Origin: Halofilum ochraceum
GTDB taxonomy: Bacteria; Pseudomonadota; Gammaproteobacteria; XJ16; Halofilaceae
Assembly: GCF_001614315.2 (NCBI RefSeq)
Contig: NZ_LVEG02000001.1
Coordinates: forward strand, 124,001 to 188,000
Reading direction: 5' to 3'
Length of the DNA stretch: 64,000 bases
Position 1 is the first letter of the stretch; each line of letters opens with the position of its first letter. Both the position numbers and the translations under genes were made by a program. Below the pieces are notes generated by a model. It was not told where the DNA came from. It ran no database searches and saw only the letters and a program-made list of their open reading frames with translations. This document shows positions 27,498-47,268 of the stretch, one piece after another.

Positions 27498-27556
27498 GCT
27501 TACGCGTGTCGGGCTGTAAGCCCGACCCACAGGAGTCCCGATAATCAGAGATTCCG
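27498..27556. repeat. REP palindrome, GTCGGGCT/AGCCCGAC family (copy B)
   Basis: Contains GTCGGGCTGTAAGCCCGACC with near-perfect arms around 27508-27527, then CACAGGAGTCCCGATAATCAG. The same arrangement, TAAGCCCGACCTACAGnnnTCCC, occurs at 34.8-34.9 kb and 46.1-46.2 kb, and TCCCGATAATCAG also at 4242. A dispersed family of REP/BIME-like elements located only between genes. Confidence 0.75.
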
Positions 27557-34781: not shown

Positions 34782-34911
34782 GGAAGCTCTGATCAAAACC
34801 AGGCAGCGCGCTTGGGGCGATGTAGGTCGGGCTTATAGACTGACAGATCAGAGTATTACGGGTTTCGGGCTGCGGCCCCGACCTACAGAACTCCCTGTGA
34901 TCAGAGGTTCC
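34782..34911. repeat. REP/MITE-like element with 14-bp terminal inverted repeats (copy C)
   Basis: Starts GGAAGCTCTGATCA (34782-34795) and ends TGATCAGAGGTTCC (34898-34911), inverted repeats matching at 13 of 14 positions. Inside lie GTAGGTCGGGCTTA (from 34822) and CCCCGACCTACAG near the right end. The left part AGCTCTGATCAAAACCAGGC with CAGCGCG is shared with the element at 45911. A non-coding mobile or folded repeat in the gap before the 35026 gene. Confidence 0.75.
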
Positions 34912-42228: not shown

Positions 42229-43998
42229 TCAGTACAAATAGGCAGCACCGCTGTCGGCACTTGAGTCATCAATCGCATCGCCGCCGATGCCTGTGGCGGC
42301 ACTGGACTCCCGACGCGCGCCCACTGCAAGGGTGGGCCCGCCGTTGGCGAGTGCGATGCCTTGTCCGAATCGGTCCTCGTCGCCGGTGTTGGTCGCCTTG
42401 ACGTATGCCTGTTGGCTCCAGACGCCGGCGCTACGGGCGAAGACGTAGACCGCGCCGCTGAAGTCGGCCGAGTCGTCGGACGGGTCGCCACCGATGCCGG
42501 TGGCGGCGCTGCCCTCGAAGGGCGCCCCCACCGCCAGGGTGTCACCATCGGCGGCGAGCGCCACGCTCAAGCCAAACAGGTCGTCGGCGCCGGTGTTGGC
42601 GGCCTTGACGTACGCCTGCTGGGCCCAGATACCGGCGTTGCGGGCGAACACGTAGGCCGCGCCGCTGCGATCGGCGTTGTTGTCCGTCGCGTCGCCGCCG
42701 ATGCCGGTGGCGGCGCTGTCCTCGAGGAACGCCCCCACCGCCAGGGTGTCGCCGTCGGCGGCGAGCGCGACACTCGCGCCGAACTCGTCCTCAGCGCCTG
42801 TGATTGCGGCCTTGACGTAGGCCTGCTGCGTCCAGCCCGCGCCACTGCGGGCGAAGACGTAGACCGCGCCGCTGGCGAAGGCGCTGTTGTCCGTCGCGTC
42901 GCCGCCGACGCCGACGGCGGCGCTGTCCTCGGATGGTGCCCCGATCGCCAGGGTGTCGCCGTCGGCGGCGAGCGCGACACTGGCCCCGAACCGGTCGCCC
43001 GTGCCATTGATGGCGGCCTTGACGTAGGCCTGCTGCGCCCACGTGCCGTCGAGGGCGAAGACGTAGACCGCGCCGCTGACGGCGGCGCTGTTATCCATTG
43101 CGTTGCCATTCACGCCGCTGGCGGCACTGTCCTCGAGGGCCGCTCCGACCGCGAGGGTGTCGCCGGCGGCGGCGAGCGCGATGCTCGCGCCGAACCGGTC
43201 GATGGCGTCGGCGTTGGCGGCCTTAATGTAGGCCTGCTGGGTCCAGGCGCTGCCGCTGCGGGCGAAGATGTAGACCGCGCCGCTGTCGGGGGCGTTGTTA
43301 TCCGTCGCATCGCCATCGATGCCGGTGGCGGCGCTGTCCTCGAACGGCGCCCCCACTGCCAGGGTGTCGCCGTCCGCGGCGAGCGCGACGCTGGTACCGA
43401 ACTCGTCAGCGGGGCCAGGGGTGGCGGCCTTCACGTATTCCTGCTGTGTCCAGGTGCTGCCGTTTCGGGCGAAGACGTAGACGGCGCCGCTGCCGTCCTC
43501 GAAGGGCGCCCCCACCGCGAGGGTTTCCCCGTCGGCAGCGAGTGCGACGTCGAATCCGAACTCATCTCCGGCACTGGTGTTGTCGGCCTTCACATAGCCG
43601 ACCGCATCGGACAGCCGGTCATCAACGTAAACCGGCTCGGAGTCGATGCAACCGGCGTCGTTGCAGGCCTGCAACACGTAGCTGGCGTTGATGCGCCCGG
43701 GCAGGAATGCGAGGTGTTCATGACCGGTGGCGTCCGCGGCGATGCGTGCCACCACGGTGTAACCGGAGACGCCGTCCGGGTTCTCGAGCAGGCGGTACTC
43801 GGTTTCGCCAGCCGTGTCGATCCAACTGAACCGAAAAGTCTTCACGCTCTGAGGCGTCAACGACAGTTCAAGCTGCGCTACCGGCGCGCTCGGCGCGATC
43901 GATGCGTCACCATTGTCGTCATCGCCGCCGCAGGCGATCAGCGCCGCCCCGATCGCGGCGAGCAATAGCACTCGCAGGCCTTCGACCACGAACTTCAT
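42229..43998 (-). CDS. FG-GAP-type tandem-repeat lipoprotein
   Basis: 589 residues from ATG 43998. The N-terminus is a lipoprotein signal, GLRVLLLAAIGAALIACGGDD, with the lipobox LIAC. After a fibronectin-like ~110-residue region come seven tandem repeats of ~69 residues, with core FGxSVALAADGDTLAVGAPFED, then SAATGIGGDATDN and SGAVYVFARSG followed by TQQAYVKA. These match the beta-propeller-forming FG-GAP pattern. The DNA repeats (about 207 bp) are very similar, so copy number could change by recombination. Surface-exposed, perhaps adhesive. Confidence 0.85.
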   Translation of the reverse strand: MKFVVEGLRVLLLAAIGAALIACGGDDDNGDASIAPSAPVAQLELSLTPQSVKTFRFSWIDTAGETEYRLLENPDGVSGYTVVARIAADATGHEHLAFLPGRINASYVLQACNDAGCIDSEPVYVDDRLSDAVGYVKADNTSAGDEFGFDVALAADGETLAVGAPFEDGSGAVYVFARNGSTWTQQEYVKAATPGPADEFGTSVALAADGDTLAVGAPFEDSAATGIDGDATDNNAPDSGAVYIFARSGSAWTQQAYIKAANADAIDRFGASIALAAAGDTLAVGAALEDSAASGVNGNAMDNSAAVSGAVYVFALDGTWAQQAYVKAAINGTGDRFGASVALAADGDTLAIGAPSEDSAAVGVGGDATDNSAFASGAVYVFARSGAGWTQQAYVKAAITGAEDEFGASVALAADGDTLAVGAFLEDSAATGIGGDATDNNADRSGAAYVFARNAGIWAQQAYVKAANTGADDLFGLSVALAADGDTLAVGAPFEGSAATGIGGDPSDDSADFSGAVYVFARSAGVWSQQAYVKATNTGDEDRFGQGIALANGGPTLAVGARRESSAATGIGGDAIDDSSADSGAAYLY

Positions 43999-44197
43999 CT
44001 GCTTTGTTCTCCGGCCGAGCGCGACGTTGCCGGAAGATGCCGCGCGGTCGCGCAGCATACCCGAAAAGTACGGAAAACTTCGGAGGTCAGACTAGCGACC
44101 CTCAGAGCGGGTCTGAAAGTTGGACCCGAGCTCACTTATCGAAGCCGGATCTGCCCTTCATTTATGGAACGCAGCACCATGGCCGGGCGGAAACCTC

Positions 44198-45265: not shown

Positions 45266-45347
45266 TTACCCGCAAGTTCCCGGCACGGGACACTGACTCC
45301 ACGGATCACGCGCCGATAACGGCAGCGCGACAAGAGAGGAGGTGGAT

Positions 45348-45782
45348 ATGGCAACCCCGACGATGCACCGCGGACAGTGCTTCTGCGGCGCAGTGGAAGT
45401 GGAGGTACGCGGCGAGCCCGAGGCCATGGGGTACTGTCACTGTGAATCGTGTCGACACTGGTCCGCCGGCCCGGTTAACGCGTTCATCCTTTGGAAGCCG
45501 GAGAGCGTGGCAATCGTCCGCGGCGAAGACATGCTCGCGAGTTACCGGAAAACACCGCAGAGCCGACGCCGATGGTGCACGGTATGCGGCGGCCATGTCC
45601 TCACGGAGCACCCCGACCTCGGACTCACCGACGTGTACGCGGCCATCGTGCCGGCAGTCGAATTCCGGCCCGGCGTCCATGTGCACTACCAGGAAACGGT
45701 CCTGCGTATCGCCGATGGTCTTCCGAAGCTGCGTGAGGTTCCGGCCGAACTCGGTGGCACCGGAGAGCATCTCAGCGAGTAG
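45348..45782 (+). CDS. GFA (glutathione-dependent formaldehyde-activating) family protein
   Basis: 144 residues from ATG 45348, with GAGGAGGT upstream; a GTG at 45342 is an alternative. The zinc-binding CENP-V/GFA fold is seen in GQCFCGAVEVEV, GYCHCESCRHWSAGPVNAF and RRWCTVCGGHVLTEHP, all the cysteine pairs in their usual order. GFA enzymes bind S-hydroxymethylglutathione or related thiol adducts, but most members have unproven function. Divergent from a GlxA-type regulator, which may control it. Confidence 0.87.
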   Translation: MATPTMHRGQCFCGAVEVEVRGEPEAMGYCHCESCRHWSAGPVNAFILWKPESVAIVRGEDMLASYRKTPQSRRRWCTVCGGHVLTEHPDLGLTDVYAAIVPAVEFRPGVHVHYQETVLRIADGLPKLREVPAELGGTGEHLSE

Positions 45783-45910
45783 TACGCGCACGGAACAAAC
45801 CGGGAGCCGCTTGATATCTGATGCGGCATGTTCGCTCAGATTACGAATATCGATCATCGTTCGATGCGTTGGCAGTAATACCTGGACGGTATTGAGTACG
45901 CTGACCAGGG

Positions 45911-46210
45911 GAGTCCGGATCAAAACCAGGCAGCGCGTTGGGCGACGGTGTAGGTCGGGCTTACAGAGCCTGAGTAAGAACCCCACGCCGTCGCGAGGAA
46001 GTGGCACAGCGAGGCGATTTTGACGATCATTCAAGGAACATAGTGGGTCTTATGTGACGAGAAGGATCGTCAAAAGCGGCCGCTGTGGCGCTTCCGCAGT
46101 ACGCGTCGGCGTTTTTACACAGGCTCTTACAGCCCGACACTCGTAAGCCCCGGATCTGTGGGGCTATAAGCCCGACCTACAGTATTCCCTATAAGTCGGA
46201 GGTTCCCTGG
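45911..46210. repeat. REP element interrupted by a MITE (copy D)
   Basis: The left part, GAGTCCGGATCAAAACCAGG, CAGCGCG and GTAGGTCGGGC (45911-45960), is the same REP family as 34782-34911. The right part, GCCCGACACTCGTAAGCC then TAAGCCCGACCTACAG (46131-46182), completes it, ending TCGGAGGTTCCC. The two halves are separated by a 161-bp palindromic insertion. The right end runs into the 3' end of the epimerase gene, whose last few codons are repeat-derived. Confidence 0.78.
45966..46126. mobile_element. 161-bp MITE-like hairpin with TTACA target duplication
   Basis: Begins GAGCCTGAGTAAGAAC and ends GTTTTTACACAGGCTC, inverted. Inner parts also pair over about 60 bp, for example GGCACAGCGAGGCGATTTTG with the complement of CAAAAGCGGCCGCTGTGG. 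TTACA flanks it on both sides (45961-45965, 46127-46131), a clean 5-bp target duplication. No coding capacity, so it depends on a transposase elsewhere. Removing one TTACA and the insert restores a clean REP palindrome, TCGGGCTTACAGCCCGA. Confidence 0.8.
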
Positions 46211-47097
46211 CCCGGCAGGCATGCGCTCAGCGAGGCGCGCAAGCCGCGCGGTTCGATGCCGAGGTCGGCGAAGGTCGCCATCTCGGCGCTGACGATATTG
46301 TCGGCCTGCATGAGCAAGACCTGGTCGATCGTGAGCGGCGGATTCGACAGAATCTTTCCCACATGAGCGATGCCCCGCCATGCGCTCCAGGGCACCGGTA
46401 GCAGTGGGCGCCAACGTCGCCGGTGCGAGAGAACCGCCCGCACGATCTCGCGGTAACGCAGTACCTCGCCGCCGCCGAGTTCGAACACGCGCCCTGTGGC
46501 CTCCGCCGTATGCGCTGCACCGGCCACGGCGGCCGCGACGTCCTCCACGTGCACGGGCTGCAGGCGGGTTTCACCGTGGCCGAACAGCGGCACGATGGGC
46601 AGGCGCGTCACGTCATCCAGCGTTGCCAGGAAACTGTCGTGTGGCCCGAACAGTACGCTGGGGTGCAGGATGGTCGCGCCCGGGAACGCATCGTTCACCC
46701 CCATCTCGCCGCGTGCCCGCGCCCGCACGTACCGTGAGGGAGACTGTCCCGTCACGCCAATGCCGGAAACGTGGATGAACCGCTCGACGCCGGCGCGATG
46801 CGCCAGCCGGGCCAGGCGCGTCGCGCCTTCGACGTGGATGCCGTCGAAATCGAGGCCGCCGCCCTCGACGTACAGGGAGACCGCGTTGACCACGGTGTCA
46901 GCGTCCGCCACCGCGGCGGCGACGGCGTCGTCGTCCTGGATGTCCGCGCGCTGCAGCTCCACACCGGGAGGCACGTCTGCCGCGTCCGGCCTGCGGGCGG
47001 CAACCCGCACGGCGTCTCCGCGCGCCGCCATGGCCCGCACGATCGCGCGGCCGAGGAAGCCGGTGCCACCGAACACGACGGTCCTTCCCGCGGTCAT
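46189..47097 (-). CDS. NAD(P)-dependent epimerase/complex I NDUFA9-like protein
   Basis: 302 residues from ATG 47097. A short-chain reductase-type Rossmann motif, VVFGGTGFLGRAIVRAMAARGD, then DIQDDDAVAAAVADADTVVNAV and GVERFIHVSGIGV. The tyrosine motif of classical SDRs is degenerate (SRYVRARARGE). It fits the atypical NmrA/NDUFA9-like SDR group. Substrate unknown. The 3' end is formed by a REP sequence. It is divergent from the glycosyltransferase gene at 47269, with a 171-bp gap. Confidence 0.82.
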   Translation of the reverse strand: MTAGRTVVFGGTGFLGRAIVRAMAARGDAVRVAARRPDAADVPPGVELQRADIQDDDAVAAAVADADTVVNAVSLYVEGGGLDFDGIHVEGATRLARLAHRAGVERFIHVSGIGVTGQSPSRYVRARARGEMGVNDAFPGATILHPSVLFGPHDSFLATLDDVTRLPIVPLFGHGETRLQPVHVEDVAAAVAGAAHTAEATGRVFELGGGEVLRYREIVRAVLSHRRRWRPLLPVPWSAWRGIAHVGKILSNPPLTIDQVLLMQADNIVSAEMATFADLGIEPRGLRASLSACLPGQGTSDL

Positions 47098-47268
47098 TTC
47101 ACTCCATCGACAAGGGCGTGCCGCGAGGCAACGTTGTTCCATCCTGAAACAATACCGACAGGCGGTCGAGGCCCCGGGATCGCGGATATATCGCAGCCGA
47201 ACTCCCCGACATTATCTATCCTCCGGTATTGAGGCGCCGCGCTGGAGCGTGGTCCGAGGGAGAACGGG

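Follow-up and report, generated by a model that had tools for sequence, protein, structure and literature searches.

Hairpin-directed insertion is already known among IS1182-family elements. In Staphylococcus, IS1272 and TnSha1 are directed to hairpins formed by terminators or other inverted repeats, with hardly any consensus among the target sequences, and the hairpin is reportedly deleted or replaced with no duplication (PMC4923244, PMC5678879); duplication of the loop has been drawn only as a hypothetical branch, pathway c (PMC5678879). MITEs linked to the IS1182 family have been listed for Methanosarcina acetivorans, where the partner is ISMac2 and 14 copies of 160 bp carry 26-bp inverted repeats and 4-bp direct repeats (PMC3852290, Table 4). 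REPs are in turn the target of several insertion sequences (ISs), including ISPsy8, ISPa11, ISPpu9/10, ISRm22 and ISRm19, with IS1397, IS621 and ISKpn1 cited in the same source; ISPsy8 inserts at the axis of symmetry of a REP and makes a duplication of 3 bp (PMC1525189).

Here we describe a 161-bp element that lies inside a REP within a 64,000-nucleotide stretch of DNA (the whole stretch analyzed, called the window below). The element is very probably a real IS1182-type MITE that was inserted at the REP center in trans by an IS1182 transposase, with symmetric duplication of the loop.

The window element and its REP target

The element, the REP pair that it interrupts and the neighboring genes are arranged as follows.

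45342..45782, + strand: neighboring GFA family gene, convergent towards the element
45905..46211, no strand: larger interspersed repeat around the REP pair, with ends resembling AGGGAACCTCTGATTA...TAATCAGAGGTTCCCT (boundaries approximate)
45950..45960, + strand: left half of the split REP, GTAGGTCGGGC
45961..45965, no strand: target-site duplication copy 1, TTACA, the middle 5 nt of the REP palindrome
45966..46126, + strand: 161-bp MITE, assigned to the IS1182 type, a single long imperfect hairpin without coding capacity
45966..45984, + strand: left terminal inverted repeat GAGCCTGAGTAAGAACCCC (consensus GAGCCTGTGTAARAACCCC)
46108..46126, - strand: right terminal inverted repeat GAGCCTGTGTAAAAACGCC (as read on the - strand)
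46127..46131, no strand: target-site duplication copy 2, TTACA
46132..46138, + strand: right arm of the split REP, GCCCGAC
46158..46180, - strand: second, inverted REP of the same pair
46189..47142, - strand: neighboring NAD-dependent epimerase/NmrA-like gene, convergent towards the element

At base resolution the element starts with GAGCCTG, ends with CAGGCTC and has TTACA on either side, exactly as the initial annotation had placed it. The imperfect inverted arms proposed there are also present, but the length of ~60 bp was too short, as pairing spans the entire element with ~75 nt per side. When folded as single-stranded DNA, the 161 bp reach -54.8 kcal/mol compared to a shuffled mean of -24.0 (z = -11.3), and none of 200 shuffles was equally stable.

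The interrupted REP is divided into GTAGGTCGGGC, TTACA and GCCCGAC. Its pattern, GTAGGTCGGGCTTN0-6AGCCCGAC, has 47 matches in the 3.64-Mb genome and none for a reversed-pattern control, so that the target is a GTAG-tagged palindrome of high copy number (47 exact) that occurs in inverted pairs of 65 bp, as expected of REPs and REPINs. Removing 166 bp (161 + 5) from the pair at 45950-46180 leaves 65 bp, as in uninterrupted pairs at other loci of the genome (e.g. C1:698931-698995), in agreement with the initial annotation, in which excision of the element with one TTACA restores an uninterrupted hairpin. Many REP pairs in the genome are empty, and with these paralogous sites of the predicted length and the further copies described below, the element withstood both refutation checks named in the initial annotation; in G002, the only close orthologue found, the intergenic stretch was not alignable and gave no orthologous empty site. 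Arms complementary at 7/7 positions around a 5-bp center occur at 0.023% of window positions, and at least 6/7 at 0.3%, while the arms at the five full copies of the element match at 7, 7, 7, 6 and 6 of 7. Chance origin of the palindrome at the insertion point was rejected on these frequencies, and insertion in the exact REP center with duplication of TTACA withstood testing.

Four further copies of the element were found in the same-genus genome G001, all at REP centers; each has the same length of 161 bp and shares 89-94% identity with that in the window. Their flanking 5-bp repeats read TTATA/TTATA, TAAAA/TATAA, GTATA/GTACA and TTATA/TTATA, so that together with TTACA/TTACA in the window all five copies carry such repeats, two of them with one mismatch. 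Thus the reading as a MITE was sound: the element is short and non-coding, forms one long hairpin with terminal inverted repeats, duplicates its target and is present in several copies at unrelated sites.

Some other features were noted in the window. The interspersed repeat at ~45905-46211 also occurs at L036, L040, L053 and L059 and is possibly another MITE, and in the window its right end extends over the 3' end, including the stop codon, of the gene at 46189. Further palindromes that resemble the REP and belong to its class are located at 27508-27526 and 34826-34882. A 609-aa open reading frame at 42229-44058 (- strand) contains repeated blocks (GDTLAVGAPFEDS...), probably FG-GAP-like surface repeats.

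IS1182 transposases and insertion at palindrome centers

The own genome encodes one IS1182-family transposase of 526 aa, which scores 368 bits against NF033551 (cut-off 270). The element carrying it (L101) is 1719 bp long, and its ends, GAGACTGTAAAAGTATTC/GAGACCGTGAAAGTATTC, are those of two sibling 161-bp MITEs. The window element has the same core as MITEs whose ends match this IS1182 copy, namely L002 and L003 (86% and 83% identity). A second IS1182-family IS, from another genome and 1586 bp long with ends CAGCCTGTCGGRCTT (L186:1064-2649), is flanked by CTAG in the same way as the CTAG-sited MITEs. It interrupts a permease-like open reading frame, and excision of the IS with exactly 4 bp restores a 628-codon frame while removal of 0, 2, 3, 5 or 8 bp does not, verifying the CTAG duplication.

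Ends of the types GAGGCTGTGTGAAAAC and CAGACTGTGTGAAAACC are found at IS1182 ISs, and GAGGCTGTGTGAAAAC is close to the window's GAGCCTGTGTAARAAC; the window type resembles these ends and is not identical to them. Searches for an autonomous IS with exact GAGCCTGTGTAARAACCCC ends found none in G000, G001, 84,980 species genomes or IMG/VR. In the species genomes, the only genuine exact match was in an uncultured Ectothiorhodospiraceae MAG that apparently equals G001; four other matches lack a second end in their vicinity and are apparently fortuitous. A pattern scan of eight MITE-rich genomes gave no paired ends 0.6-2.6 kb apart among the matches listed. The expectation that an IS with the same ends exists was therefore borne out only for sibling end types, which IS1182 ISs do match. 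A resident partner is not required of a MITE; no IS with GAGCCTGTGTAARAACCCC ends was found in G000 or G001, and partners were found for sibling end types only. PF05598 loci in five genomes were also considered as partners, and fitting ends were present at the own-genome IS1182 copy only. An affiliation with IS256 or Tn3, considered on the basis of their ends, was abandoned when the IS1182 ends matched.

Since no autonomous IS with exact GAGCCTGTGTAARAACCCC ends was found, the partner was assigned by resemblance of the ends, the shared interior and the target, and the same features place the window type in the IS1182 family. Judged from these sequence comparisons, an IS1182 enzyme probably moved the window's particular end type.

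IS1182 transposases are associated both with related ends and with insertion at palindrome centers. The own-genome IS1182 copy and the MITE L003 occupy the center of a second REP class, GTAGGTTGGGTTGAGC-GCCA-GCGATACCCAAC, with 4-bp duplications GGCA and TGGC, and an intact copy of this class is present at L103. This second GTAG-tagged palindromic repeat class (GTAGGTTGGGTTGA...ACCCAAC), a target of the own IS1182, was seen at L103:1850-1877, L003:1385-1409 and L057:2986-3010. In Pseudomonas plasmids, an IS1182 IS has entered the 5-nt loop of a terminator hairpin (GCCCGGC-TCACT-GCCGGGC, in AAAAGCCCGGC-TCACT-GCCGGGCTTTTT) with a 5-bp duplication, and a second target of the same IS has a 4-nt loop (GCCCGCC-AATT-GGCGGGC, in AAAAGCCCGCC-AATT-GGCGGGCTTTT) and a 4-bp duplication. 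These copies of the IS share 98.6% identity or more with the query copy, and the one at the second target shares 98.8%; near-identical copies of one IS thus produce a 4- or 5-bp duplication according to loop length. ISPpu20 (CCCGCC-TTAAT-GGCGGG) and L233 (GGGCCC-ATATT-GGGCCC) have 5-bp duplications, and L230 (GGAGCC-GGTA-GGCTCC) has a 4-bp one.

The insertion points are thus placed symmetrically around the dyad, and at perfect hairpins the duplication equals the loop, although this is not universal. L118 and L222 have loops of ~10 nt but 4-bp duplications, with a 5-bp stem 3 bp away from the duplication. L216 lies at a palindrome center without a clear duplication, and L114, L116 and L221 have none; L219 was left out because of ambiguous inverted repeats. 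Many IS1182 relatives are inserted at CTAG or GGCC without flanking hairpin stems. The initial annotation had predicted a transposase that prefers hairpin loops; this is supported at the level of the family, whose elements are found at REP and terminator hairpin centers with 4- or 5-bp duplications, but no autonomous IS with the exact ends was found, and many relatives are at CTAG or GGCC. As REPs and terminators lie outside genes, insertions there are likely tolerated and remain readable.

In the proposed mechanism, an IS1182-family DDE transposase acting in trans would bind the GAGCCTGTGTAARAACCCC ends of the non-autonomous MITE. The ends would be joined to both REP strands at positions symmetric about the dyad axis and 5 bp apart, and gap repair would then copy the central 5 nt (TTACA) to both sides, leaving the REP arms intact.

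How the palindrome is recognized is the point at which a second explanation competes. The transposase may see the REP as dyad-symmetric double-stranded DNA, binding as a dimer to a symmetric duplex rather than to an extruded hairpin, so that targets follow sequence symmetry. Both CTAG and GGCC, as targets without a flanking hairpin, are perfect palindromes of 4 bp, and the stems of L118 and L222, set 3 bp apart from their 4-bp duplications, also fit this explanation. Moreover, any symmetric insertion makes the parity of the duplication equal to that of the palindrome. However, at targets that differ in the sequences of both stem and loop, one IS changed its stagger from 5 bp to 4 bp in step with the loop, which would not obviously be expected of a rigid dimer bound to a duplex. 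For IS1272, hairpins lacking a sequence consensus are the reported target (PMC4923244). We therefore regard the symmetric duplex as a serious contender with somewhat less than an even chance, and lean modestly towards recognition of the REP as an extruded hairpin.

A hairpin family of near-constant length

The interior of the window element is common to other hairpin MITEs with different ends. A nearly gapless alignment was assembled from 17 copies of four end kinds in five genomes, all of 161 bp except for one of 160 bp, and a covariance model was built from these copies. It matched 81 of 369 genomes of the class, in 64 genera, and the listed matches are mostly 158-162 bp long. Family copies with end types other than the window's are nearly all flanked by CTAG or near-CTAG. 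The genomes with matches (e.g. G358, G124 and G083) have many CTAG-flanked hairpins of ~160 bp each. The closed genome G358 has over 60 matches to an end pattern, and no autonomous IS with identical ends was among the matches listed. The window copy had no match in plasmid and phage collections; its family relatives gave one match in a Pseudomonas plasmid and none in phages or E. coli.

Among 44 one-strand copies, compensatory changes occur in 44 of 57 pairs and 97.4% of cells are paired; shuffles gave 77%, and sliding the partners gave 35-43%. Fitting of the alignment to the model biases these figures in its favor. Conservation reaches 90% or more in fifteen unpaired columns, indicating that not only pairs but also mismatches are retained. 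The copies measure 161 bp (21 copies), 160 bp (12), 159 bp (10) and 176 bp (1), placing 43 of 44 within 159-161 bp. Two features of alignment A3 may be Dam or protein sites: at columns 64-67 and 127-130, GATC is present on both hairpin arms in most copies, and around columns 25-32 and 157-164 there is a nearly invariant asymmetric internal loop, in which GTAGCGAG faces CGCAGTAG.

Such conservation of pairs, unpaired columns and length would also be expected if the main reason for retaining the ~160-bp hairpin were a function as RNA or as a site for a host factor, with mobility secondary. Yet Rfam gave no match at the gathering score for the window and none at E<=1 for the locus, and no promoter-like site was found in 45700-46300. 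Recurrent insertion and end types that co-vary on both arms indicate mobility, and repair of one arm templated by the other within the hairpin could yield covariation without an RNA function. A mainly functional RNA or site is therefore unlikely.

The copies and remnants also bear on how often insertion has taken place. Five one-ended remnants of the window type abut REP arms, at C3:26584-26632 and C17:133275-133297 in G000 and at C6:87661, C10:75044 and C45:10157 in G001. In the three from G001, 15-19 bp of the element end continue directly into the opposite REP arm, and the junctions are close to a short CCCGAC-like match common to element and REP arm; these remnants look like slippage deletions of the hairpin between such matches. 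Relative to the REP-pair spacer, the copies fall into three element/REP configurations, requiring at least three insertion events.

A single insertion into one REP pair, followed by spread of the composite of outer repeat, REP pair and insert, could instead account for the REP pairs with the four G001 copies being nested in a larger interspersed repeat common to these loci, and because of this nesting some G001 copies may be copies of a composite rather than separate events. As a general explanation we consider it quite improbable, since either REP of a pair may contain the copy, both orientations with respect to the spacer occur, the duplications differ (TTACA, TTATA, GTATA/GTACA), one REP of the pair at G001 C10 (L063/L143) contains an intact copy while its partner REP contains a remnant, and numerous REP pairs are empty. 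Finally, movement by an HUH tyrosine transposase of the RAYT type, the mobilizer of REPs as single-stranded hairpins, instead of a DDE enzyme would fit an element that lies within a REP and forms a long hairpin of strongly conserved fold, but is very unlikely, as terminal inverted repeats and target duplications of 4-5 bp are characteristic of DDE enzymes and are not made by IS200/IS605-type ones, the element has these in place of the subterminal hairpins and lack of duplication typical of IS200/IS605 and RAYT systems, and related ends bound IS1182 transposase genes.

Repeated insertion of the MITE by an IS1182 transposase thus remains the preferred reading. We also put forward, tentatively and with slightly more doubt than belief, that this IS1182 branch reads target structure rather than sequence, joining at both stem-loop junctions of hairpins such as REPs and terminators and duplicating exactly the loop with a stagger that flexes between 4 and 5 nt, and that the ~160-bp length and internal-loop architecture of the class-wide MITE lineage, driven by the same family, are selected as a folded unit for the transposase or a host factor.

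Comparison with known systems

Among described systems, the IS1182 family (NF033551, including the ISPpu20-type ISs of Pseudomonas) shares [GC]AGNCTGTGTRAAAAC ends, palindrome-center insertion and 4- or 5-bp duplications with the window element, which differs in having no transposase gene and no autonomous IS found with its end sequence. The M. acetivorans MITEs, which are archaeal, are listed with the size class and duplication length of the CTAG-sited relatives, and their target is not described there (PMC3852290). The REP-targeting ISs resemble the window element in using a REP as a specific target, but are full ISs with their own transposases, and the covered parts of the source describe neither a MITE nor a 4/5-bp loop-length rule among them (PMC1525189). 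With respect to REPINs and GTAG-tagged REPs (PMC3116915, PMC3733652), the window target is such a REP pair, and the REP is the victim rather than the element. The literature searched, a partial collection, gave no account of either the class-wide hairpin family or the 4/5-bp rule.

The phenomenon is more general than the initial annotation suggested, with the window copy being a REP-center variant of an IS1182-type MITE family. Across 64 genera the length and fold of this family are nearly constant while its ends and target vary, which bears on the fixed size of some MITEs. These findings also provide a simple rule that is testable in vitro, by which the length of the duplication depends on the parity and loop of the palindrome that is targeted. 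As for IS1272, the target in the window is an inverted repeat or hairpin, in this case a REP center; in contrast to the hairpin loss without duplication of IS1272, the arms in the window are intact and the center is duplicated (5 bp). Hairpin targeting by the IS1182 family thus extends from the staphylococcal elements IS1272 and TnSha1 to a gammaproteobacterial branch, in a variant whose outcome is loop duplication instead of hairpin loss.
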